Shown in pieces: positions 12,301 through 58,548 of a stretch of 64,000 nucleotides of DNA. Numbering within the stretch: position 1 is the stretch's first letter; each line of letters opens with the position of its first letter. The stretch covers positions 31,931,106 to 31,995,105 of the forward strand of contig NC_092100.1 of the NCBI RefSeq assembly GCF_045679555.1. Direction: 5' to 3'. Source of the DNA: Salvelinus alpinus (taxonomy: Eukaryota; Chordata; Actinopteri; Salmoniformes; Salmonidae). The notes below the pieces were generated by a model. It saw only the letters and a program-made list of their open reading frames with translations. It was not told the DNA's origin and did no database searches. The position numbers and the translations under genes are program-made.

Positions 12301-15300
12301 ACGGAAAGTGTGATCACACAGACGTCCAGAACAGCTGGTGCTCTCATGCATGCTTCAGTGTTGCTTGCCTCGAAGCGAGCATAGAAGTAATTTAGCTCGT
12401 CTGGTAGGCTCGTCACTGGGCAGCTCTCGGCTGTGCTTCCCTTTGTAGTCCGTAATAGTTTTTTAAGCCCTGCCGCATCCGACGAGCATTGACGCTGGTG
12501 TAGTACGATTCAATCTTAGTCTTATATTGACACTGCCTGTTTGATGGTTCGTCGGAGGGCATAGCGGGATTTCATATAAGCATCCGGATTAGAGTCCCGA
12601 TCCTTGAAAGCGGCACCTCTACCCTTTAGCTCAGTGCGGATGTTGCCCGTAATCCTTGGCTTCTGGTTGGGGTATGTGTGTACGGTCACTCTGGGGACGA
12701 TGTCATCGATGCACTTATTGATGAAGCCAGTGACTACTGTGGTGTACTCCTCAATTCCATCAGAAGAATCACGGAACGTATTCCACTCTGTGCTAGCAAA
12801 ATAGTCCTGTAGCTTAGCATCTGTGTCACCTGACCACTTCCGTATTGAGCGAGTCACTGGTACTTCATGCTTTAGTTTTTGCTTGTAAGCAGGAATCAGG
12901 AGAATGGAGTTATGGTCAGATTTGCCAAATGGAGGGCGAGGGAGTGCTTTGTATGCGTCTCTGTGTGTGGAGTAAAGGTGGTCTAGAGTTTATTTTCCTC
13001 AGGTTGCACATGTAACATGCTGGTAGAAATTAGGTAAAATGGATTTAAGTTTCCCTGCATTAAAGTCCCCGGCCACTAGGAGTGCTACCTGGATGAGGAT
13101 TTTCTTGTTTGCTTATGGCCTTATACAGCTCGTTGAGTGCAGTCTTAGTGTCAGCATCGGTTTGTGGGGGTTAATAGACAGCTACGAAAAATGGTAACTA
13201 GTGTGGTCTACAGCTTATTATGAGATACATTACCTCAGGCGAGAAAAACCTAGAGATTTCCTTTAATATTAGTTTTTGTGCACCAGCTGTTATTTACAAA
13301 TAGACACAGAACGCCACCCCTTGTCTTACCGGAGGCAGCTGTTCTATCTTGCCGATGCACGGACAACTCCACCAGCTGTATGTTATCCATGTCGTCGTTC
13401 AGCCACGACTCGGATAAACATAAGATATTGCAGTTTTTATTCTCCCGTTGGTAGGTTAGTCTTGATCGGCACTCATCTATTTTTTCATCCAATGATTGCA
13501 CGTTGGCTAATAGGACTGATAGCAGCGGCGGATTAGCCATTTGCCGTCGGATCCTTACATGGCACCCCGACCTACGTCCCCGATATTTCTGCCTCTTTAT
13601 GAAAATTATGGGGATTTGTGCCTTGTCTGAAGTAAATCCTTCGCGTCCGTCCAGTACGAGGTGAGTAATCGCTGTCCTGATATCCAGAAGCTCTTTTCGG
13701 TCATAAGACACAGTGGCAGAAACAAAATAAGTTACAAATAGCGCGAAAAAGGACAACACAATAGCACAATTGGTTAGGAGCTCGTAAAACGTCAGTCAAC
13801 TCCTCCGGTGCCATTACAAGAGTGGCCTGAGGTGTATGTTGGTGTTTTTATAATATGTCCCTGTTGAAATAAAGTTGGTATTTTTTTTTACACGTTAAAT
13901 TAATACACCTTGTCTTCCACAAAAATATATTTTTTGGTGATGCATTAACTTTTGCATGTCCACTGTATCTCTTGGAAACTGTGAATCTCACTTTGTGTGC
14001 TGTATGTTCTTTAAGAATGCGGTTGTGTTCATTGAGGGTTATGAAATCTCAGAGCAGAATTGATTTGAACTTGGCAAATTGCAGCCACTTGGAATCCACA
14101 TGTGGTGGAATTTTGGGTTTCTTTACACATGAGGTCAGAGTTATTTAATGGAAATAAATGCTCAATTTGTCTTGAGACACTGAAAAAACATGGAAAAACT
14201 AAAAGGATGCTGCAGGGCTTTTTGGAATTATAGAAGTCTAAATAGAAGGCATTGCCCTTACGTAGGTTATTGTTTAAGGTTTCCAAACACACAGATAAGA
14301 CTGTATAACACTTGCTTTTATTAAAAAATGTTAGTACATAAAAAAACTGTCGCTTGTAAGTATTGGTTTTTCCATTGTTGTGTGAACTATGGTCCTAATG
14401 TTTTCTTCTCTCTACAGTGAGTCTGCAGTGTAAGATCCTAAAGTGTAACTCAGAGTTTTGGGCCTCAAGCTCCGGCCCGGAGGAGGAGTTCTGTACTGCG
14501 CTGCGGGCGTACAACAACTGTGTACGCCGCACCGCACGCACCTGCAGAGGCGACTTAGCCTACCACTCAGCCCAACATGGCATAGAGGATCTCATGAGCC
14601 AGAACAACTGCTCCAAGGAGGGGCCTACAACTCAGCCTCGAGCCCGGACCCCCGCTCCACCACCACAGCTCCAGCCTGACAGCCAGGAGCGCTCCGATGG
14701 GCCGGAGCAGTGTCATTACGAACGCAGCCTTCATCGCCAAGCCTCACCACCCAACTACACCCACTGTGGCTTCTTTGGAGACCCGCACCTCCGTACTTTC
14801 AGCGATGACTTCCAGACCTGCAAGGTTGAGGGAGCCTGGCCCCTTATCCATAACAAATACCTGTCTGTTCAGGTGACCAACACACCTGTCGTGCCTGGCT
14901 CCTCTGCTACGGCCACCAGCAAGGTGAGAGGAGCCTCTACATCTCTCTATCGTATTCACATGTTGAATCCATGACATATTGACTATATTGTGGGCACAGC
15001 ACAGTTATCAACGTCAGGCATCCCCAGACACTCTAACTACTGATCAAGTATTCTGTGATTAATTCTTTGCCAAGGACTGAAACCGTGCAAAACTACTCCC
15101 TTGAAGTAAAATGTCACCACTTCTCTTATCATCATAGAAATACCAACAGACCTTGCAAAAAAACTTCTGATAGCACCTGTCTTCTCATCGCTGCGGAGGA
15201 GTGTACAAGTGTTCTAAGTAAAGAACTCAGAAATAGCAAAAAATATAGCTTGTTACCTAGCTATGTCCACTATTACATAATTGAGCTTCCAATATGGGCC

Positions 15301-18111
15301 CATAAAGGAAAGCTGTGTTAAAATGCCAGGTAGATGTTTTTAGGAAAGGGAACATTTTGTTGTCTGTCCTGACCAAGGCTGTTACTCCTCTATTCTGCCA
15401 TTTTCTTACTAAAGAAAGCCCTTTCAGGGAATGGAAAAATATGTTGGCCTGCTTGTTTGAATCAGTAAACAGACAAATTGTACTGGAGTGATTAGTTTGT
15501 AGGAGCTCTCAAATCAAGAAATAGTATCGTAAGTAAGACCTTTGCATGTAAGGTTCTGGGCCTCTTTAATGTGGGTAGAGAAGTAGGAACAGCCGTGTGG
15601 ACTCTGGTTAATGTTTGGATCAGTTCCATCGCAGACCAAGAGGCAATACACAGACCAATTGTTGGGATCTTGATAAGGTTTACAAATGATATGCCAGTAT
15701 TATAACAGCAGTATAAACATCAAACGTTACCAGGTGGCTCCAGCCCTCTCGCTTTCTTTTGTTTTTTGTTAACAGCCAAGACTAATGTTAGGCCCACTGT
15801 ATGTGTAGCAGTCCATACCCTAGCATTGTGTGTATGTGAATTACAAACTGTTGTTTTAACTAAGTGCTCAAGCCATGCAGGAAACTGCAGACATTTTCTC
15901 CACATTAGTTGGCCCTCATACCTCATCAATTATCATTGTTTTGCTTCTATGGTACATTGGACGGCCTGGAGGGTTTACCCTGAAATGGCTTTCACTAACT
16001 TAAGGGGAAAACAAAGAACCCTGAGCATTTGTAGTCTGTGAATTCACTTAATATTCGGTCCACATTTGGTGAAATTTTGGCAATCGTGATTGTGTGACCA
16101 AAAGGCCTCCGTGCACTGTATCCTGACATCAGGGTTTACACTGAAACTTTGTCCTCAATCACATAAAGAGAAAGACCAATTTTCCATCATCAGACCTAAT
16201 GATGCACTTTCAGCATTCAGGCTTTTTTCTGTGCACTTAAGGTAATTTATATTTGTACACAGCTGTACTTGGAAACAAATTAGACAGCTTTTTAAGTTAT
16301 TCAGTCTGGACAAAGGGAAAACGATGCTACAGCCTATACAAACAAGACTTCCCTGGGTATAGATAGACCATGGCATTGCTGGAGCTCTGCTTAATATTGG
16401 CTCCTGCTGCAGTGTATGGGAACTGTCGGTTGTATACTCTACCAGTGTGACATGCTAGCTGTTCCCTTAGACTTCCAGTCATTGAGCCAATGACTATCCA
16501 CTTAAAAGCTCTTCTCAGCAGAAATATATAAAAAAGGATATTGTTTTAGCGGTGGCGACAATTTAGCAGCGATGGGCCACCGCTGCCAAATGAATATAGG
16601 GGAAACACTGACTACCTTCATTAAGGGGGATGGTTAATGAAGCAAATTGTTTCTTTATGCACAGGGTTTTTGTAGAGGTTTTTGCATGTTATTAGATAAA
16701 GTTGTCCTTTGAAAACAGGAGATTGAGGGGTGTGCTGGGTGGCAGATGACTTCACTGGGTAAGGCATTTTGGTGCTCCCCTGCCCCCTCCACTCTGAGAT
16801 CAGAGCCTCTCGGCTGTACCGGGGTCACTTCTGTGACAACGGCTCACTGGCGTCCTAATGAAACCATGCAAGTGGAGAAGTGACCAGCCTTAGTTAATTA
16901 GCCGCAGAGCATGCTCTCCCCTACTGGTACAGTGCCACTCCCCAGAGCACAGTTCTGGGGTTCACAGGCATGTTTTTCACCACTATGAATGGCTCGTCTT
17001 TGTGTCTGCACACTGAGGCCCGATTTAACATGGCCTATACCCATGTTTTCTGAGGCCGTTTACTTTGGCCTCCCCATGTTGAGACAGAGCTGAAATGTGA
17101 CACTGGGGTGGGGTCTGCATTACACAAACTACTGGTGTTCTTAATGCCAAAGCACAAAGATACCCCTCAGTCATTTGTGTAGCCCTACCACTAACTCTTG
17201 TCCACATAAACCTGACAATAGAGAGCCTCCATACAGTTTTTAAATTCAACTGGTGTTCAATGATTTCATTAATTTGATGTCTATATGTACCTTTTCTATT
17301 TTCAGCCTCAAAAGGCTCCATCATTACCTGAAACGTATTGAATGAGCTAACTATTGTTGTGCTCACTGCTATTTCTAATCCCCTCTCTCTCTTGCTACAG
17401 TTGACAATCATCTTCAAGAACTTCCAGGAGTGTGTGGACCAGAAGATGTATCATGCAGAGACAGACGAGCTGCCTGCAGCGTTCGCCGATGGCGCCAAGA
17501 ACGGCGGAGACCGCCACGGGGCCAACACGCTACGCATCGTGGAGAAGGTGCCTGGGCAGCAGGTGGAGATCCACGCACGCTACATCGGTACAACCATTGT
17601 GGTCCGGCAGGTGGGGCGATACCTGACCTTTGCTGTGCGGATGCCAGAGGAAGTAGTGAACTCTGTAGAAGACCGAGACAACCAGGACCTGTACCTCTGC
17701 CTGCACGGCTGCCCCGCCAACCAACGCATCGACTTCAGGACATTCAGGGCCCATACAGTGGAGGGCCACGGCCTGAGCCGGACTGGCAGCCCTCCCCATG
17801 GGTTTACCTACAAGGCTGCCATGGCTAAGTGTAAAGAGCGCCTCCCAGTGGAGGACCTGTACTTCCAGTCCTGTGTGTTCGACCTGCTTTCCTCTGGGGA
17901 CGTCAACTTCACCATGGCTGCCTACTATGCCTTTGAGGATGTGAAAATGCTCCACTCCAACAAGGACAAATACCACATTTATGAAAAGGATGCATTTGGG
18001 AGTAATACGGCGCCAAGGGGATCAGATGTGTTCTCGCTAGTCCTCCTCAACTTTCTGGCTGTGTTGTTGTTCATCTATAGTCCCCTGCCAACATCATCCT
18101 CATTATGCTAG
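3322..18111 (+). CDS. rgma: Repulsive guidance molecule A, complete four-exon coding sequence
   Basis: Coding exons: 3322-3335, 8091-8209, 14418-14923 and 17401-18111 (stop TAG 18109-18111). All junctions are GT/AG and in frame, giving 450 codons (449 aa; human RGMA is 450 aa from memory). RGMa is a GPI-anchored neural guidance protein that binds neogenin and acts as a BMP co-receptor. Seen in the protein: a hydrophobic signal segment at about residues 31-44, the family start [11 protein letters not shown], an RGD at 88-90 within [10 protein letters not shown], and a partial von Willebrand D region with the autocleavage site GDPH at 165-168 (cut D166-P167). N-glycosylation sequons occur at NCS, NYT and NFT. 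The hydrophobic C-terminal tail after [14 protein letters not shown] fits a GPI signal. The start at 3322 lies in a 14-nt coding piece; M17 (8125) or M19 (8131) could also be used. The gene converges on chd2. The family call is firm; the RGMa paralogue call rests on sequence and on the chd2 neighbour. Confidence 0.95.
4564..4841. mobile_element. Short DNA-transposon MITE
   Basis: Inverted ends TACAGATGTAGGATCTTAA and TTAAGATCCTACATATGT bound about 280 bp with no coding potential. It lies in rgma intron 1. Confidence 0.7.
6138..6898 (+). mobile_element. Tc1-like transposon remnant with N-terminal transposase fragment
   Basis: Inverted ends CTGAACAAAGATATAAATGC and its inverse (TATATTTTTGTTCAGTG, 6881-6896). 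The interior encodes only the helix-turn-helix part of a Tc1 transposase on the plus strand ([20 protein letters not shown], 6510-6570; [17 protein letters not shown]), with the catalytic half deleted. The terminal sequence is typical of a very abundant fish family. Confidence 0.75.
7640..7720 (+). repeat. GGTTAGG-rich dispersed repeat fragment
   Basis: Degenerate tandem TTAGG/GGTTAG units (GTTAGGATAATTAATGTAGC, GGTTAAGGTTAGCAAAGGGG) resemble a dispersed fish repeat. They are interspersed rather than telomeric. Boundaries are uncertain. Confidence 0.35.
8091..8209 (+). CDS. rgma: rgma coding exon 2 (signal peptide)
   Basis: The acceptor is a pyrimidine-rich tract ending ccaccag and the donor is CTG|gtaaga. 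The exon encodes residues 5-44, including [11 protein letters not shown] and the hydrophobic core [10 protein letters not shown] that targets the protein to the secretory pathway. Two in-frame ATGs (8125 and 8131) could serve as alternative starts. Confidence 0.88.
9141..9220 (-). repeat. HpaI-type SINE, 3' fragment
   Basis: The minus strand reads the SINE 3' part: AAGATTTTGTTCTTAACCAA, then GCCAAGTTAAATAAAGGTAA. The tRNA-like head is absent. Confidence 0.7.
9646..9661 (+). repeat. Poly-C run
   Basis: About 16 consecutive C residues in rgma intron 2; such runs are prone to length error in assemblies. Confidence 0.7.
10010..13800 (-). mobile_element. CR1/L2-group LINE, inactive, interrupted at 11244-12276
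   Basis: Minus strand. Endonuclease region at 13759-13250 ([33 protein letters not shown]), linker pieces at 12857-12522 and 12416-12225, reverse transcriptase at 11080-10610 ([36 protein letters not shown]), C-terminal part at 10365-10162. The codon before the FADD active site is a stop (TAG), and several frameshifts break the frame. The 3' end is near 10010. A second copy lies at 59310-62287 in the opposite orientation. Lies antisense in rgma intron 2. Confidence 0.85.
11244..12276. mobile_element. TTAA-flanked non-autonomous DNA element, 1033 bp, nested in the LINE
   Basis: TTAA at 11240-11243 and 12277-12280 bracket the insert exactly; joining the flanks restores the LINE reading. The left end is CTTCTTATGGATAGGGGGCA. 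It shares GATAGAAAACRCTCTGAAGTTTC with the element at 35090. TTAA target duplication is the hallmark of piggyBac-type transposons. No transposase was seen. Confidence 0.75.
14418..14923 (+). CDS. rgma: rgma coding exon 3 (N-terminal cysteine-rich domain and autocleavage site)
   Basis: The acceptor is tctctctacag and the donor is AGCAAG|gtgaga. The exon encodes residues 45-213: the paired-cysteine N-terminal domain with RGD, a proline-rich linker less conserved in the family, and the GDPH cleavage site. Cleavage leaves two fragments that stay joined by disulphides in the mature RGM family. Confidence 0.95.
14924..17400 (+). other. rgma: rgma intron 3
   Basis: A 2.5-kb intron with no coding exon. 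A short repeat-like GC-rich stretch at about 16540-16612 resembles a common teleost dispersed repeat. The stretch 16720-16930 is GC-rich compared with its surroundings and might be a conserved regulatory element; that cannot be judged from one genome. Confidence 0.6.
16540..16612. repeat. Dispersed repeat fragment
   Basis: GCGGTGGCGACAATTTAGCA and CCACCGCTGCCAAATGAATA form an imperfect inverted repeat followed by GGGGAAACACTG, a combination common in teleost dispersed repeats. The family is not named. Confidence 0.35.
17401..18111 (+). CDS. rgma: rgma terminal coding exon (C-terminal domain and GPI signal)
   Basis: The acceptor is cttgctacag and the exon runs in frame to TAG. It encodes residues 214-449. 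It includes [20 protein letters not shown] and MLHSNKDK, which are typical of RGMs, then a short variable segment and a hydrophobic tail. The tail and the absence of following charged residues fit GPI anchoring. A long antisense reading frame at 17530-17976 is a composition shadow. Confidence 0.96.
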
Positions 18112-25749: not shown

Positions 25750-48313
<22,564 letters not shown>

Positions 48314-48363: not shown

Positions 48364-49200
48364 CTGTCAAAAGTTAGAAGAGTGATGAACTATCATAAAA
48401 GTCCCATAAGATAGTTTCTCAGACAGTAAAATCCTTGACGTTACGAAATAAGACAACGTTGTGTTAGGCGTTTAAATTGGATATATATTAATATATAAAT
48501 TATCGATGGATAAATGACAACTGATGACATCCTGTAATTAAAAACCCAAGTGTTGAGAATTACAATTAGATCCACCGACCGAGCCACATGCACTAATTCT
48601 AACTGCGTCATCAGACAAAGGACGACCAAAATGTGATAAATAAAAATTCAATCGATTGTAGGCATTATAAAAATGTAAACATACCTATTCCATGTACAGT
48701 AAGGTATAATGAAGTATTAGATTCACATCCGCAAAGTAGGCTATAGACTATATAATACTCATGACCCCAAAAAAAGGTATTAAAAATAAAAGTTGAATGA
48801 AAATAAACATTAGGGGGAAAAAAACATTAATAGGATATTGAAGCTTCAACACAAGTGATCGTGAGACGAAAGGCTAGAGCTCTTCACAGAGCACACGAAA
48901 AATGGAGGCGCGCCATGGCTGCCAGACCTAGGCAGAGAAGACAACGACTCGCGCATACACTCAGTAAAACCGATATACACGACGAAAAACGAATAAAAGC
49001 AGTAAACCTAATCTACTGTTCACTATAGTACTAGTTATTTTAAATTAAAATATTAATAGAGCGGCATATTCCAGCTTGATTTCATGAAAAGGGCTGACGA
49101 AAGCCCAATGAATTGTTCCCCTTCCCAAGGCTCATCCGCCATCTAGAGCTCCTTCCTAGCTCTGAAAGCTTTGCCTTTGATTGACGTTATTTCCATTTAC
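48364..49200 (-). promoter_or_regulatory. chd2: Probable chd2 promoter and 5'UTR exon
   Basis: The first coding exon begins at an acceptor (tttgacag, 48364), so a non-coding 5' exon must lie upstream. A good donor GGAATAG|gtatgttt ends at 48685, giving a 321-bp intron. Sequence at 48880-49150 is GC-richer than its surroundings, with an AscI-type GGCGCGCC and two ATGG motifs (minus-strand TAGATGGCGGATGAG near 49133-49148, a YY1-like site). The start site is not determinable here. Confidence 0.4.
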
Positions 49201-50114
49201 CCCACACTCAGGTGATGTCCCAAAGTCCCACCCCCTTTATTTTGTATAAAAACGGCAAACCTATACTACATTTTTATTTCATAAAAGGTTGCTTCACTTC
49301 AAGAGGATAGCCTTTGCCAAAGTCATATCCATATATATTTTTTTATCAATAAGGGTTACATTTGTACAAAAATAATTAAACACTAAGACCCATCACTTCC
49401 TGCTCAGACAGGAAGTATGACTTCAGGAGCCATTTTAGAGGCAGAGCCTTGGCCACCATTTCAGTTCTTGCCAAAAGCTCTGTTTTAACTGTGTATTATG
49501 TAGAGCTATGTAGAAATGCAGAGTATTACTGTATGGATTAGCCAGCCCCTTCTCAATGGAATGTGTTGATCACTAGCAGCCATACCCTTTCATTTGACTT
49601 AAGTATTTTACAAAAAAATTATGTTTGCCAATTACGAGTCGGATTGTGAACACAGAACAGTCCTACAAAAAGTGTAGGAAGTAATAAAACTGGTCAAATA
49701 AATTAACCAGGGATATAAATGGTAAAAAAAAATTGCTACCTTGTTAAGTATTGCTCGTAATGGAGACAAGTAGCGTAAATGCTTGAGCAAAAAAAACTTT
49801 TGCGTAATAGGTGTAAAAGTCCAAAATAAAAAGTTGTGTAAACTATTATTTGCGTTTACCCGCCAATTCCCCCAATCTTATTTAAAGTTAGGAGGCCTAA
49901 TTTAGCTAGCACTATTAAATGTCCATTTAGATTGTACAAGGCAAACGTATCATACCTTCCAGGAAACAGGAGTAAATCGGAAGCCCCAGAAAATACCAGA
50001 AACTTGATTACATTTGAGTAAAATTGATTCAGTTGGAGAGAATTTTCACATTTAGCGAAAAGACAGTAGTCTTGTAACATTCTTGGGTAGCATATTGATC
50101 AATGAAAGAAAGTC
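48686..50114. other. Gap between the candidate lncRNA and chd2
   Basis: Contains the probable chd2 promoter (48.88-49.2 kb) and further minus-strand ATGG motifs (CTGAAATGGTGGCC and AAAATGGCTCC, about 49432-49470). A longer lncRNA end or an additional chd2 5' exon could occupy it. Confidence 0.4.
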
Positions 50115-50442
50115 AGAATAGAGAAAATAGCAATTTTATTTAACATAAATAACATCCTATTAGGAAATCACAGAAGTAGAAAAGTAGTGTAACTGAATTC
50201 AGTAAAGGAAACCATTACAATATTCAAACAATTGATTCCAAAGAATTGCCAGCACATCCATCCAAAGCACAAGAGTCCATGTCAAAGTTTTCAAAGTTAT
50301 TCCAAATGAGGCATCTTATCCAGTAAAATAAAATCCTGAAAAATCCAGTCAGCTTTTCAAAAATCCAATTAGCTCCCAAATCAACGCCGCCATCTTGATG
50401 ACAAAGCAGTTGTCTCCACTTCAATGTCCAGTAGAACGGGGT
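50115..50442 (-). ncRNA. Candidate lncRNA terminal exon with poly(A) signal
   Basis: The acceptor is tttcttaattccattaaag (50443 side); AATAAA lies at 50140-50135 with T-rich sequence after it. Motifs on the minus strand: CAAGATGGCGGCG (about 50387-50399), TTGGATGGATG and GTAATGGTTTCC (50218-50207). A 66-codon frame (50424-50224) opens here with no recognisable domain and probably is not translated. AAGATGGCGGC is also the YY1 DNA consensus, so the motif could act in DNA as well as RNA. Confidence 0.5.
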
Positions 50443-52599
50443 CTTTAATGGAATTAAGAAAAAGGAAATGAGTCGAAAACCCCAATTACATTTAATTAAT
50501 ACTTCACTTTTGTCCTAACCCATCAGTTGGAATTTGCCTGCGAAAATAGCTTCAACACCACCACAAAAGATTCCGATTCCAATGCTCAATAGCTAGCTGA
50601 AAGTCGAGTTGGTAATAAAACCCAAAGTTAAAATGTCTGTATCATAGCAGTATGCAGTGACAAATATCACAATTCAAATAAATCCCCCCAAATCCAGAAT
50701 GTTTATCTAAGAGCATTAAGGGCTGAATCCTTACTACCCATACAAATGTGTAATATGCAGACAGATTGGACAAAATGTGAATTTGAAGATTCAGCCCTAT
50801 TCGCCCCAAATGACCTTGTGCCCATGATTTTCAAATATGAACTTTAAACAATTAAGGGAATATTTTTTGGGGGGGATGGAATACTAAAAGTAATGCAAGT
50901 CAGCAGTTCAAATTTCCACAAAAGCAATAATTTAAAACCTTTGGAAATCTATGATTCTCACAAGTGTTTTAACAATAAATCTAAAGTCAAATATTATTAT
51001 GCTTTGTTCACCTGTTCCCAGGAAGTAGGAAACTCAAAACTACCCGAACGGGGAAACATTAGGAGTACAACGACTATTTCATACTTGGGTGCTCGTTATG
51101 ATTGGTTTTGGATGTCGGAAACTCGCAATTACGTAAATTCTGGGAGCTTTCCAGAGGTATCCCAGTCCCAAATTTCCGATGATTCCGAGAGCACACGAAC
51201 GCAGCATTATGCAATTTAATAGCAAGCATTCAACAAATTTTACAGCTGAATAATTTGAAAACAAGACAAAAACAGGAAATACAGGTGAAAGCTAAGCAAA
51301 TGGAATGTTACAAGATGTCTGTTAATCAAAACATATTACAGATCAGTATAACTTATAATTTTAGCATGGATAACGTAAAGTAGTTATTTATATCTGACAA
51401 ATCAAAATCGTTCATACAACCCATGGCTTGTGATCTACTTTTGAGATTACACTATGTTCATTAGAATAGATATACAATAAGGTGGTGACATTAATTTGAT
51501 AGGATTTATTATTATTTTACTGTCAAGCTAGGCGAAACTACTTAAACTGCCCACTAGGGGGTTCACAGGAATCAAATTGAGCACACGCTGGCATGAGTTA
51601 ATCTCATAATCCACTTTTGGCCAATTGACATTGATGAACTATTAGAGTTGTATCTAAACTACTGCTGCTTTATTTGTAACGAAACACAAAACTCCAACAA
51701 TAGTAATCATGCATGGAGTTAAACTGCACAAAATATGCTAAATGTGCTTCCTCTGCATGCACCCTGCCTCAAACTTCCACACATGACCAGCAGAGATTCC
51801 ACAAGGAAGAGAGGTAATCACAAAAATGAGAATAATAATTTTAATAAGAACGAGAATAATAAAAAGAGTTCTCAATCTATTACGCATTCACATGAGCCAA
51901 GAAAAAATAGAGGCAGGTTCCGACCCAAGATGTCAGTTCATGACCAACAAGTGAAAATAAAGTGAGGATTTTTGGAGGATCTTGCCAAGAAAACAACTGA
52001 ATTATTACGAGAAACCATCTCATATTCAAAGTACAAGGAAATATCCATCGGGCCTTTAGTTTGAAGTTCTAATTTAGTGGACATGCAAAGAAATCCATTA
52101 GTAGAGGTGGGTTGGGTCTAATTAATACAGGATTATTTCACATCTAACCTTTTTACTGAAGAAAAAAAGACAGCATGGCCTAAGTGTGATCATTTGACGT
52201 TTAGAAAAGTGAAATTCCTCCCGAATAAGTCAGAAAATACTGAATCATAATGGTAGTAGTAGGTAGGTTACTTTATTATCCCAGATAGGAAATAGGTAGA
52301 ATAGCATAATGCAGTAGTCTATGTATCATGTCAGAATACACTGACCAAGTGAAAAAAGGAGCTTCAATCTATTACGTTTAAAATTAAAGCTGATAATGAA
52401 AAAACAAACAAACAAAAAATACTGGAGGATAAATTTGGGCAGTTGTGAATAATTATAGTACATGTTGACCTGGCATAGGCCACAGGCAAGAGAAGAGTCA
52501 GGGAATATTTGAAAGTTGGAAGAAAGCTTCTTTAAGCATCAGGAGTTATCAACAATGTATGGCAACCTCCAGCTTCTAGGGGAAGTATGAGCATATTTG

Positions 52600-52800
52600 A
52601 AGTAAATCTTTAAAGGGCGAGTCCTTTACGCATCATACGCTAGCGTACCTGAAGACTTCGTCATTGAGCTTACTTTTGTTAGCATTGGCTGGCGAAACTA
52701 GCTCCAACTTCCTTCATACAGAGACATAAAAATGGTATCCACAAGTTCATTGGACGCTGGGTAAGTAGAAAAACAGAATCTCGCAGTATCCCTTTAAATC
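52600..52800 (+). repeat. Dispersed repeat fragment in a candidate lncRNA intron
   Basis: Contains AACTAGCTCCAACTTCCTTC, GAGACATAAAAATGGTATCC and ends with TATCCCTTTAAA, matching a repeat I associate with salmonid genomes. The GCTGG|gtaagtag inside resembles a donor but belongs to the repeat on the other strand. Confidence 0.45.
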
Positions 52801-53360
52801 ATTGTGATAAAATAGGATGCCCTTGTAACAGGGCTTCATATACCAAATTAAGAGATTAGTAACTTTAAACCATTTCAGCTTAATTTGAAGTGTCTGTTCA
52901 GTGGCATGTAACAATGAGTGATACAATTATAGCTTTCGCCATGCAGCAAAAAACAACAAAGGGGTAAACTTTCACTGGAATATACATATTTTAATAACAC
53001 TGCAAGAAGAGGTAGAATGTCATGGTGGTAGATCTCTGTTGATCTCAATTGGTTAAAATCAGTTTTCCAAATTATACCACATCACTGGGAATCCTACTCC
53101 CCATTACCAATAAATAGGCCTAGCTTTGGATTGTTATGGATGTTAAAGATCAAGTGCTATGTTTAAGGCCCTGTGTTTTGGGCAAACATGACATGCCTGG
53201 ATTTGGAATTTTATGTAAAAGTTGTTACTTCAATGTTATTAAACATAACTTAATGTTTTTCTAAGAAATCGATTTAGTACAGAGTATTGACATTACATAT
53301 ACGGCAGACATTTGAAGAAACATTCCATTTGTTACAGCACACAACACAGACTAGACTTAC

Positions 53361-53421
53361 ATAGCTGTCTTCTTACTTCATGGGGAGGGAATGGAACAGG
53401 CAGTCAGTCTATGTCTTGATT
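53361..53421 (-). ncRNA. Possible lncRNA exon 4 (45 or 61 nt)
   Basis: The acceptor ttttatcccttacag is excellent. Two good donors follow: GAA|gtaagaag (exon end 53377) and CTAT|gtaagtct (exon end 53361), suggesting alternative splicing if transcribed. Confidence 0.35.
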
Positions 53422-54745
53422 CTGTAAGGGATAAAATGAGAAATTAGGTGACCATCAAATACACCAGACCACGAGTTGTTTCATGAATACTCACTCATAC
53501 TGACCAAATATTAGAAAATGTGGTCTCTCGGAATGGAGTTCCTCATCTAGGTTTTTACTTGAATACCATTTTTGCAAACCAAAATACAAATTCCCCGAAA
53601 TGTGATCAGGTTTCCTAGTGCTATGCATTTTGCTCAGTTCAAGTAGTGCAGAATTATAAAAAAAATATGGGTTCCTGACTTTAAAAAAAATCTATGACCC
53701 CCCCAAGATGCCATTACAAAATTCTGCGACCCTAGTCTACGAGTTGGGACATTATATTACACCTTTCACCTTTTCAACCAAACAAATAATTTACAGATTT
53801 TCATCAAACATGTGTGTGTATTATCAATTATTATGATAACCATTCTTCATATTAACAGAATACAACATGGCATCTTCTTGATTGGTAATATTGTCAATTT
53901 GACCAATTTAGCAAGCTAGCTAGCTAACTTATTAACAACTTTAGTTAGCTTATTAGTATTACTTACTACATTAACTCATCTCATTCAACCTGAAACCTTC
54001 TAACTGATAAAGAACCTGAACAGACTTAAGCCATATAGCAATTTAACTGGTAAATACTAGCTTCCAAGGAGCACTTGAACACAAGGATAATACTACTTTT
54101 AGGATAACGATCATACATTTTAGGCCTAGGCTAGATTGAGTTGAGCCAAATTAATAGGCACATTATTAAAAGCCCTTTAATTCCCAATGTTCTTTACTTG
54201 TCTGAGATCATTTCTTTACTTACCCATTGGCTAGCTAGCCATTTTTTTCGTACTGATGTATGAATGTCAGTTAGTTCTCCCAAAAAGGATAAATAGCATT
54301 TTTTACAAGCACTTAACAGAGACCTTAGCAGAGAATCAAATTCCAAAAATAAGTCAACGCACAAAATGTGAACGTAACATCATCTGCGAAGATTTGAAGC
54401 AGCGTCGTGGTAGCAATAAGAGCTAACTTTTATAGTGAATAATATTGCCCTCTTGTGGTCTTAACAATCATAACACTGCTCACAAGTGTGTTCAGCGATA
54501 TTTTTAACGTATTTATTCATTGTAAGAAATGTTCCTATTTCCTCTTCTTTTCAAGTATTGAATGGGCACAGACTAAATAAATGCCAAGTGAGTACAAAAT
54601 GCAAATGTTACAATGTAGTGTTAGGATACACTGTAACACACACCCATATAATATTTTACATGGAAGAGATGTTATTCAAAATGTGTTGTTTTCAGGTTAT
54701 ATCTTCTTCTCAGTCTTTAATTAAAAGCGAACACTTTATACTTAC

Positions 54746-54805
54746 AAGTCTTGATCATTCCGATCCCCCTAGTCATCGATTTGGTGGACCACCCGGATGA
54801 CAAAC
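54746..54805 (-). ncRNA. Possible lncRNA exon 3 (60 nt)
   Basis: The donor GACTT|gtaagtat is strong; the acceptor tacttttgaag is weaker, after a long T-rich tract. The neighbouring sequence has no repeat signature. Confidence 0.3.
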
Positions 54806-54972
54806 CTTCAAAAGTACAAATACAAAAAGTGAAAACAGGCCAACAGCACAACCTATTGGTTAGTCTAATATAGCAGTCAGGAGAAACGTACTTGCTAAAT
54901 TAAACATACGCACTGTTAATAATTAATAGTCATAAAATGCCATCACAAGCTCAGTTTATTACACAAACCTAC

Positions 54973-55036
54973 CATTTTTCGAGTATCAAGACTTCGGTAT
55001 TCTTCTTAACCCCCATTCTTCAAACTTCAATGTTTC
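54973..55036 (-). ncRNA. Candidate lncRNA exon 2 (64 nt)
   Basis: Minus strand: tttcttttttcag precedes 55036 and ATG|gtaggttt follows 54973. Both sites are close to consensus, and the exon contains GAATGGGGG and ends GAAAAATG. The internal frame has stops, so it is not protein-coding. Confidence 0.5.
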
Positions 55037-56562
55037 CTGAAAAAAGAAATATACATGTTAGATTACAATGATTATGTCACAAAATCTGGCAGAATGCCAT
55101 ACATTGTCTGATACAAGAGATTCTATACATCTGTACAGAATTTCATATTCTAAATGTTACTACAAATACTACAGAGGCAACCATATACTCGAGCAACTAA
55201 TAATTCATTTGTGATCTAAACTCATTTGCAGAAGGCAACTTATAACCATTTACATTTTACGAATACATGCTTGTCCTAAAATACTATACTTTCAACTTGA
55301 AATATGCGTTGTGGCCATTTATCCAACAATTTTTGTATCAAAATGAGTAAGAATTGTTCATGGAACACAAAGATTAAACCGGCAACCAATTTATGACCAC
55401 AATATAGCAGCTGATCAATGATACCTTATTTAAATATAGTGTCCCTAAACATGGAAATCTTGAGACTTGCCTGAATCAATATCTCAGCATCAGGGACCTT
55501 TATATTAAGCTATAATAAAGATGATAACAGAGCATCAACTTGATTACATTAAATATCCATGAAACAAATCTCATCCTCACTGTATGGACATATTTCAATA
55601 ACCTGGTCAGGATAGCATTAAGTAGCTTTTGTGTCTTGGAAAAGGGTGTATTTCTTAATAATTCCTCTATGAAATCTGATCAAGTGAATCGTTCTGTATT
55701 TGTGAAGTGTGAAAAACCTACTCCCATAACTACTAAAATAATAACCCCAAAAATATTTATGGAATTATTTCAGAGACTTTTATTTCCATTCTGTAACACA
55801 AAGAGTTAAAAGCCAACACCCTATTTACAATTTTTTGAAAAATAGCTTATATATGCTCAAGACGTTGCAGTTAAATTTAAACATACAACTTGTGTTATGT
55901 GTAATGAAAGAGCAACATTATCGAACATATTGTTTAACTTCAAATTTAACTTAATAATTTTAACTACTGTTAAAATGAGCTGAAATATTAAGTTAGCCAT
56001 AACTATACCTGTCTGGAATGTTTTCCAGCATGTAACACCTAAACCTGGCAATAAAGCCTTTTCTAACAGATATATTTATTTGTATGGAAAAACATCGAAA
56101 TGCACTATATAATAGAACATCCCTTGAAATCACAATATAAAGCTTCATACTTTCATCTTACTCTCAACCCACTTAAATCTACATTTATTGTTAAGGTGTA
56201 ACGTTACTCAATTTAGTTAATTATCTGTCAATTTCAGACAAGGGCATTTGCCCTTTCAAGGACAAAGCACATTTTAAATGCGTAGGTTCTAGAACTCGAA
56301 AGTGTACCGAATAATAATGTTACTTTGTATTTGACTTAAATTAACGCAACACATTTTTTCTTTCTCCTATTCATCCCACGAATTAGAATTTCAACCACAC
56401 GAACATTAGGTCCGAATATTTTATTTGTATAATTCTTAACCGGGAACACACCATGGCCATTTTTACAACAGACCGTAGAACCCTCGCCCTTTCCACCATA
56501 TTGCCACATCTTCTAAACGCGCCTTTATAGGGGAAAACTGTTTCTGTTTTTTAGTTTCTTAC

Positions 56563-56820
56563 CCACATGTGAGAAGGGCGCTATCCCCCGTCTTCTACCC
56601 GCGCGACCGCCGCATTTCTTGCAGATTTTCGTCATTTTATCGGGATCTTCACCCTGACAGTTGTACGTCTCTGCCATTCTGTGCTGGATGCTGGTCTCTT
56701 CCGTCTGTCCTTCTCACTGGGTCTGCAAGAACTGTTATCCTATTCAATAGCTCTGCCCCCTCTTTTTCAACGTAAGCGCACACAACTTCCTCTGAAACAC
56801 ACCAGCATCCTGGGTAGCAA
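56563..56820 (-). ncRNA. Candidate lncRNA exon 1 and its promoter-proximal sequence
   Basis: The donor CACATGTGG|gtaagaaac is near-consensus. The region is GC-rich against AT-rich flanks. Upstream, minus-strand GCTACCCAGGATGCTGG (about 56800-56820) resembles a ZNF143/THAP11-type promoter element. The exon holds a 38-codon open frame starting at 56677 (MAETYNCQGEDPDK...KICKKCGG) that would stop five codons into exon 2. I do not recognise this peptide. The start of transcription is a guess. Confidence 0.45.
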
Positions 56821-56829
56821 GCAGAGCCT

Positions 56830-58548
56830 CTACTCTTAATGGTTTAGATAATTACTATAAAGCGATTTATTGAGGAAAATATGCAACATTGTGGCTCGAC
56901 ATTTATTTTATACACTTTTCTGAAATGTATCAAATGTTAAAACTAGGAGATACATTGCGGCAACATTTCCCTTGTATTGTCCAAAGATCTATGCTCAAAG
57001 GTTTACTGTCTGTTTTGCATTTAATGTTTGTTCTTAAGAAATGTTTTGTGTTTATGAGGCAAGATGTATAAACCAACTTCATTGGTGAAATAGTTTAGTT
57101 TTGAACATTAAACAATGCTGAAGTTGTGTTTTACTACCTCCTGTCCTGTATTTCATTAAATTTCAGTACACTTATTTCATCACGTGTTGCATAGCTAAAG
57201 GCTATTCAATTAAATAGTTATAGAACACAGTAGATATGTCAAAATCTACCAGTGTCAAACTAATATAGACTACCACATTTGTAATTGTTTGCCTATAATA
57301 TGTTGATGTAATTGCTTGAATTGATAATAATTTGTATTAATATTACAAATAATATGCATGTAAGAACCAATTGTATACAGATACAATTGAAGAATGTCAG
57401 GGAGAGACCATAATGGCGTTGCTTTGTGGGAAGCAGCAAAAACACATACGCCATTTTGAACTTACTGTTCAGTCCTCAGTACTCCACCCCATCACCGACC
57501 AATAAGATGTGAGCGGAACAGCTTCGGCTGTTTTGCAGTGGAAGATTTCCTGGAAAAATATCCACAGCCTAGCAACAAGAGTTGTAAACCCCCATTCCCA
57601 TGAAAAACGGCACCCGTCGTTCCCTCATTGGACAGATCACAGAAACTTATTTGCACAGGAAAAACAAAATGGTGCCAGTTGAACTAGAAGTTACCCTTCA
57701 CTATAGACCTGGGATCAGATTACCCTACCCAAACTGGGGGGGAAATATCTTATCCTGTATCAGTAGTTAGGGGCAAGTTCCACCTCCTGCTAAAATGCAG
57801 AAAGACACATTGTGATTTGTGATGGGCGAAAAGAGGATATATTAATGCAACATTGATCAAACTTGTTGTCATTGTTGAACATGACAAAATATTGCTTTTC
57901 TTTTTTTAACAGCCCATAAAATCATAAAGGTTGTAATTGGTTACACGTGCTTGCTTACACATGCTCTAGAACTAAAGTAGTGCCAGTTGATATGCCCATT
58001 TATGAAGTTCATGGTCATTTTAACTGCAACGTTTGTATTGTATTAGACAGAGAGTAGACCACCGTTTCCTGTCAGTAGAATTTTGCTGTAGCCCTTATTC
58101 ACTGGTTTGAATAACAGGTATCCAAGCAACAGTAACCAGATCTACTAATTTTCTGTGTTGGCGTCCGATTTACAATTCCTGCCGAACAGACAACAGATCT
58201 GATTTTTTTTAAACAAATATAGAGTTGTATTATTTTGATAAAACAAGTAGTGTGTCAGACAAAGAGTAATTGTTGTTATAAAATGAATACATTAAAAAGC
58301 AGCATTTGACAGCTCATACTCAATAGTTAGGCTCCTTTAGTCCAATATTGGGCTAACGTTACTCCTTAGTCCAAGGACCTTACATGTCTGTTTAAAGGGT
58401 GATTTGGCTCTGGAAGCCAAAGCTGCCAAATACTGCAGCTAAACGTGAATCGATTCTCAATTGCAGTAAGGTTCTAGAAACATAAATCCCTCTACTTTCA
58501 TATAACATAAAACTAATTTCACAAATGCAAAATACACACACTGTACAA
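56830..58548. other. Upstream flank of the candidate lncRNA
   Basis: AT-rich with scattered short frames. Holds the ATGGCG pair near 57.4 kb and a CCAAT motif. No gene recognised. Confidence 0.5.
57380..57480 (-). promoter_or_regulatory. YY1-like ATGGCG motifs upstream of the candidate lncRNA
   Basis: ATAATGGCGTT on the plus strand and CAAAATGGCGTA on the minus strand lie about 45 bases apart; a CCAAT motif (gaccaataag) follows at about 57498. They may be promoter elements or part of a longer first exon. Function is inferred from motif shape only. Confidence 0.25.

Follow-up and report, generated by a model that had tools for sequence, protein, structure and literature searches.

A candidate Chaserr upstream of chd2 in Salvelinus alpinus, with a counterpart at a second chd2 copy

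We analysed a 64,000-nucleotide stretch of Salvelinus alpinus contig NC_092100.1 (hereafter the window; positions count from its first base), in which a predicted five-exon unit lies directly upstream of chd2 on the same, minus strand. The published non-coding gene Chaserr, as described in PMC7798263 and PMC6841665, is likewise located upstream of CHD2 on the same strand, with five exons, AAGAUG in the last exon and a polyadenylation signal. An initial annotation had proposed the unit as the orthologous locus, and its exon-1 donor, three internal units and AATAAA signal were all recovered at the same positions on the minus strand. The features are given below, along with their state at a second chd2 locus of the same genome (the duplicate).

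25753..48313, minus strand: chd2, from the start-codon exon to the C-terminal exon (tblastn, PDB, Pfam)
48601..49300, no strand: CpG-rich promoter-like block of chd2 (CpG observed/expected ratio, o/e, 0.85-1.15), with the YY1-like CTAGATGGCGGA at 49146-49135
50115..50442, minus strand: predicted terminal exon 5, 328 nt (307 nt in the duplicate)
50140-50135, minus strand: AATAAA polyadenylation signal, kept in the duplicate
53421-53361, minus strand: predicted exon 4, 61 nt (51 nt in the duplicate), donor GTAAGT
54805-54746, minus strand: predicted exon 3, 60 nt, donor GTAAGT, weak-scoring acceptor; both junctions identical in the duplicate
55036-54973, minus strand: predicted exon 2, 64 nt, donor GTAGGT; same length in the duplicate, with donor GTAAGT
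56563..56720, minus strand: predicted exon 1, donor TGG/GTAAGA after 56563; the donor GT is that of GTACGT in the duplicate
56201..57000, no strand: CpG-rich promoter-like block over exon 1 (o/e 0.74-1.19 in 400-nt windows)

The spliced model amounted to approximately 671 nt, within the published Chaserr length of 579-1313 nt; the 3' end (50115) was taken from the initial annotation, and the 5' end (56720) was assumed. The last 3' splice site, for which the initial annotation had no position, was placed at 50442 (ttaattccattaaag/ACCCCG), as in the duplicate locus. The longest open reading frame (ORF) of the spliced model had 43 codons, in agreement with the claim that the units share no long reading frame. 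The three 400-nt windows over exon 1 showed a GC content of 0.42-0.47 and a CpG o/e of 0.82-1.19, which is CpG-rich without being extreme, and blocks like those of exon 1 and chd2 (o/e approximately 0.7-1.2) occurred elsewhere in the window as well. An Rfam search gave no match at gathering scores, and a test of RNA structure in exon 5 gave no signal (z 0.38; 63 of 100 shuffles folded equally well).

A tblastn search with a human CHD2 sequence found the exons of chd2 collinear on the minus strand, beginning with MMKNKNKKQ at 48313 and reaching the C-terminus at 25753, so that the unit indeed lies upstream of chd2 in the same orientation, as had been claimed. Pfam detected two Chromo, two SNF2-rel_dom, one Helicase_C and one CHD1-like_C domain on the six chd2 pieces scanned, and the best PDB match of one chd2 exon was CHD1. 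The predicted 3' end was 1.80 kb from the chd2 start codon in the window and 1.86 kb in the duplicate. Published Chaserr lies within 2 kb of the start site of CHD2 (approximately 2.2 kb in mouse), and the unit falls within this limit when measured to the start codon and to the promoter-like block. The same-strand position directly upstream, together with an acceptor-like site ahead of the chd2 start codon, would also suit alternative 5' untranslated exons of chd2 transcribed from an upstream promoter. We consider this improbable, as the polyadenylation signal ending exon 5 is also present in the duplicate, a separate CpG-rich promoter-like block belongs to chd2 at 48.6-49.3 kb, partly identical in the duplicate, and mouse Chaserr is described as independent of Chd2 in PMC6841665. 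Within the chd2 block, 49200-49101 was identical between the copies except for a few terminal bases, and this segment includes the YY1-like CTAGATGGCGGA.

The search of the 2.37 Gb genome for chd2 copies confirmed the earlier guess that chd2 is duplicated. Among the candidates scored with a 60-amino-acid chd2 piece, three places were found: the window, contig C9 (98% identity) and contig C18 (73%), the last of which we infer to be chd1. Collinearity between the C9 block and the window extends over the Chaserr candidate, chd2 and rgma, and this second chd2 copy also has a predicted five-exon unit, of approximately 646 nt if an assumed 5' end is used. When 10 kb of the window were globally aligned with the duplicate, all 8 of 8 splice dinucleotides were kept, against a same-strand background of 249/457 for GT and 229/398 for AG (approximately 55-58%). 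The junctions of exon 3 and the acceptor of exon 5 scored weakly yet were identical in the duplicate, and the exon 2 donor persisted although its surrounding sequence was altered.

Retention of site strength was compared among minus-strand sites at 49.3-57 kb. Sites entered at a window score of at least 2.4 for donors (13 sites) or at least 4.0 for acceptors (9 sites), and were counted as kept if the duplicate scored at least 2.0 or 3.0, respectively, at the same place. Of the six named strong sites, four were retained, namely the exon 2 and exon 3 donors and the exon 2 and exon 4 acceptors, against 3 of the 16 unnamed ones (2/9 donors, 1/7 acceptors). The exon 1 donor, whose duplicate score prints as 2.0, was not counted as kept; the score of the exon 4 donor dropped to 0.7, though a GTAAGT sits two bases on; the acceptors of exons 3 and 5 fell below the entry cut-off and hence outside the count. 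Aligned identity was 540/627 in exons (86.1%) and 4225/5321 in introns (79.4%; Fisher p 4.4e-5, a test that treats sites as independent, with 44 exon and 614 intron gapped positions omitted).

Three intronic stretches, in introns 1 and 4, were identical between the copies in 40-nt windows (56308-56238, 52131-52092 and 51770-51731), and these are candidate regulatory elements.

The last exon and the reading frames of the model contain the following elements.

50386..50397, minus strand: CAAGATGGCGGC, the first AAGATG element, corresponding to published motif 1 (AAGAUG plus a purine); 11 of 12 letters in the duplicate
50317-50312, minus strand: second AAGATG, overlooked in the initial annotation
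Exon 5: CATCAAGATGG block
50349..50393, minus strand: 14-codon ORF opened by the motif AUG (MAALIWELIGFLKS; MATGIWELIGFLKS in the duplicate)
55020..56677, minus strand: 43-codon upstream ORF, with its AUG in exon 1 and its stop in exon 2, across intron 1

In published Chaserr sequences AAGAUG is typically followed by a purine, and motif 2, AAAUGGA, is present in 11 of 16. AAGATG occurred twice in exon 5 (followed by G and by C, respectively) and not at all in exons 1-4, and the duplicate had one copy, followed by G. At least two copies in exon 5 were reached by 0.66% of 5000 dinucleotide shuffles, and by 3 of the 124 AATAAA-anchored stretches of the window, the exon 5 stretch among them. A 27-nt block around the first AAGATGG, ending in CATCAAGATGGCG, was identical in both copies, as was GACAACTGCTTTGTCATCAAGATGGCG, while GGATGGATG was not kept in the duplicate. 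Of the four motifs named by the initial annotation, two were not retained in the duplicate: AAGATGGCGG was present and the AATGG of exon 2 was kept, while TTGGATGGATG and GTAATGG were found in the window only and were lost in the duplicate. The strand excess of ATGG-type words (A[AG]ATGG, 10 versus 2 at 50.1-57 kb) was not used, being one of five patterns in six regions, the others of which vary.

The mouse Chaserr 3' rapid amplification of cDNA ends (RACE) primers given in PMC6841665 were also compared with the window. The nested primer ACCACTGAGAAATCAAGATGGCAG, which contains AAGATGG, aligned to the conserved exon-5 stretch, a match equalled by 3 of 1000 shuffles. Under a strict scheme, the best site of this primer in the whole window, on both strands, was in exon 5, and that of the other RACE primer likewise. 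These matches may weakly support identity with Chaserr. For the joined human exon-4 pieces, 17 of 1000 shuffles reached the observed match and 362 of 12788 window stretches equalled it, and the human exon-2 contig gave nothing against the window exon (499/1000 shuffles reached it). The match of one mouse primer to exon 2 (5/1000 shuffles, 37/12788 stretches) was not relied on. The published BLAST comparisons likewise gave no human-fish match for Chaserr.

The 43-codon ORF across exons 1 and 2 raises the alternative of a small protein-coding gene. Its start context CACAGAATGG is good and the ATGGCAGAGA start is kept in the duplicate, but a frameshift beyond the start leaves an ORF of 27 codons there, with its stop in exon 1, so that the peptide is not conserved. 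The peptide was rejected as a product because of this frameshift, and a small protein-coding gene is the least credible of the alternatives, with hardly any likelihood. Under the usual rule for nonsense-mediated decay, the upstream ORFs of both copies predict decay; the stop in the window lies 47, 107 and 168 nt ahead of the three following junctions, and this ORF is a possible trigger of decay. In PMC6841665, decay of Chaserr is likely set off by a non-conserved ORF ending in exon 2. The 14-codon ORF keeps its length in the duplicate (40/45 nt identical, stop TGA to TAA). Its five changed bases are confined to two sense codons and the stop, and the remaining codons carry no silent substitution, so that this ORF is at most a candidate for coding.

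The splice sites had been called strong in the initial annotation. This held in part: scored with a generic matrix, exon 2 was indeed strong (unit score 10.6) and exon 4 moderate (7.1), while the acceptors of exons 3 and 5 were weak, ranking in the top 9.7% and top 26% of all AGs, respectively. The alternative last-exon acceptors 51039, 51011 and 50335 outscored 50442. The acceptor 50335 was rejected, as it would lose the conserved element, and the 50442 acceptor is identical in the duplicate.

Several of the results weigh against the identification as Chaserr. The score of the weakest named unit was equalled or exceeded at 49-57 kb by 12 units on the minus strand, counting the three named ones, and by 7 on the plus strand; splice strength alone is therefore not beyond chance, and it was rejected as proof. 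The acceptors of exons 3 and 5 were weak by score in both copies. When the exon set was slid rigidly, 13 of 214 positions equalled the observed identity, which is borderline, and the excess of exon identity is accordingly modest. The duplicate lacks the second AAGATG. Exact motif 2 (AAATGGA) was absent, the nearest being ACATGGAC, kept in the duplicate; motif 2 is not defining for Chaserr, since it is not universal in the published set. Only 2 of 23 mammalian fragments taken from papers had their best site in a predicted exon (exon 5). When gap costs were softened, the two primer matches were equalled by 342 and 62 of 12736 stretches, and their order appears to be inverted relative to mouse, as judged from the primer nesting, the other RACE primer matching on the downstream side of the nested one instead of upstream.

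The unit counts and the rigid shift, together with the 79.4% identity of the aligned introns, would also suit splice-like signals that had arisen by chance in neutral intergenic DNA, with the similarity of the copies reflecting the duplication only. This explanation is weakened by the conservation of the splice dinucleotides in the duplicate, which exceeds background, by the higher retention of the named strong sites and by the presence of the published Chaserr motif in the expected exon. We give it slight credence, somewhat less than the derivation from chd2 untranslated exons.

Identity with Chaserr has its sequence basis in the layout, the motifs, and the splice sites and polyadenylation signal conserved at the second chd2 copy. 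The initial proposal of an orthologous locus was upheld in strand, gene order, distance to chd2, five-exon layout, AAGAUG and polyadenylation signal, all of which match published Chaserr. The best explanation, which we hold with considerable confidence, is that the locus is the fish ortholog of Chaserr, encoding a five-exon, polyadenylated, non-coding RNA that most likely works as in mouse. Chaserr is described as a spliced, polyadenylated, nuclear RNA whose last-exon AUGG elements bind DHX36. It has homologs in every vertebrate examined and represses Chd2 in cis (PMC6841665). We infer transcription, cis repression and an RNA-binding step at the present locus as well. Transcription, splicing and 3'-end formation approximately 1 kb upstream of the chd2 promoter would dampen chd2 in cis, the AAGAUGG element of the last exon would aid the dampening, and CHD2 protein would feed back on the tandem pair. 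Owing to its short upstream ORF, the spliced RNA would be susceptible to cytoplasmic decay.

A further, more speculative reading is that the deeply conserved AAGAUGG, besides being an RNA-protein site, serves as a YY1 site in the DNA and/or as a translated start, with each chd2 copy keeping its own cis-repressor. In the whole window only CAAGATGGCGGC matched the YY1/TISU consensus SAASATGGCGGC perfectly, and a YY1-like site in the chd2 promoter block, approximately 1.2 kb downstream of the AAGATGG element, is kept in the duplicate. The duplicate, with 11 of 12 consensus letters, the excess of YY1-like sites across the window (11 versus 4.6 expected) and the pattern of base changes in the 14-codon ORF argue against this reading, and we regard it as unlikely. 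A literature search on CHASERR with TISU gave only PMC7798263, whose TISU passage concerns Cyrano.

If each chd2 copy has its own cis-repressor, the pair offers a natural test of dosage feedback, which a two-copy fish genome makes testable after gene duplication. Two chd2 copies with a Chaserr-like unit each would be paired natural variants, in which retention extends to the splice dinucleotides, the polyadenylation signal and the first AAGAUGG element but not to the upstream peptide, the remaining AUGG sites or portions of exons 4 and 5. The contrast of retained and lost features therefore narrows the range of what the RNA may need. Mice do not survive homozygous loss of Chaserr (PMC6841665), and CHASERR loss is linked to a human neurodevelopmental disorder (PMC10705407, PMC12644095).

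The remainder of the window contains one further gene and repeats.

14399..18105, plus strand: rgma-like gene, convergent with chd2 (two exons scanned; RGM_N and RGM_C in Pfam)
636-1426: transposon-like stretch, presumably Tc1-like, with 93.6% and 90.1% identity to two places beside the second chd2 copy
59-63 kb: region upstream, much of it filled by ORFs that we take to be reverse transcriptase-like

Human chd2 and rgma are presumably convergent as well. The second chd2 copy on contig C9 carries a 54-nt tandem repeat of 31 copies (L010:3882-5557), of which the window has one unit (33441-33386). The repeat unit contains the terminal part of an exon from the helicase region together with the 5' splice site of that exon (CCATTCCAG/GTAGGG), the splice donor thereby being multiplied. 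The exon frame is open throughout the array, with 581 codons between the beginning of the stretch read and the first stop, and the array, if read through, would add an 18-residue repeat to CHD2.

Among known systems, Chaserr/CHASERR (1810026B05Rik, LINC01578) shares with the present unit the tandem same-strand arrangement less than 2 kb from chd2, the five exons, the last-exon AAGAUG with its first copy followed by a purine, the polyadenylation signal and a short ORF ending before several junctions; a human CHASERR isoform has four well-supported introns in PMC10705407. The two differ in that the predicted exons 1-5 span 6.6 kb in the window, whereas approximately 17 kb lie between the start sites of the two genes in mouse, and in that the present unit lacks exact motif 2 and has a CpG-rich promoter-like block that is not extremely G+C-rich. 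Yeast SRG1-SER3, named in PMC6841665, is alike in outline, with an upstream same-strand non-coding unit repressing the downstream gene. It is not a relative, and the 3' end of SRG1 overlaps the SER3 promoter, whereas here at least 0.8 kb separate the predicted 3' end of the unit from the promoter-like block of chd2. A literature search on CHASERR/chd2 with zebrafish, salmon and salmonids gave, judged by title, no paper on Chaserr in duplicated fish genomes. Fish Chaserr is already known, zebrafish Chaserr being included in PMC7798263 and PMC6841665, and what is added here is that each of the two chd2 duplicates seems to have retained one. Compared by position and layout, zebrafish Chaserr would be the same gene, with the difference that here the chd2 block is duplicated and the unit is found in both copies.

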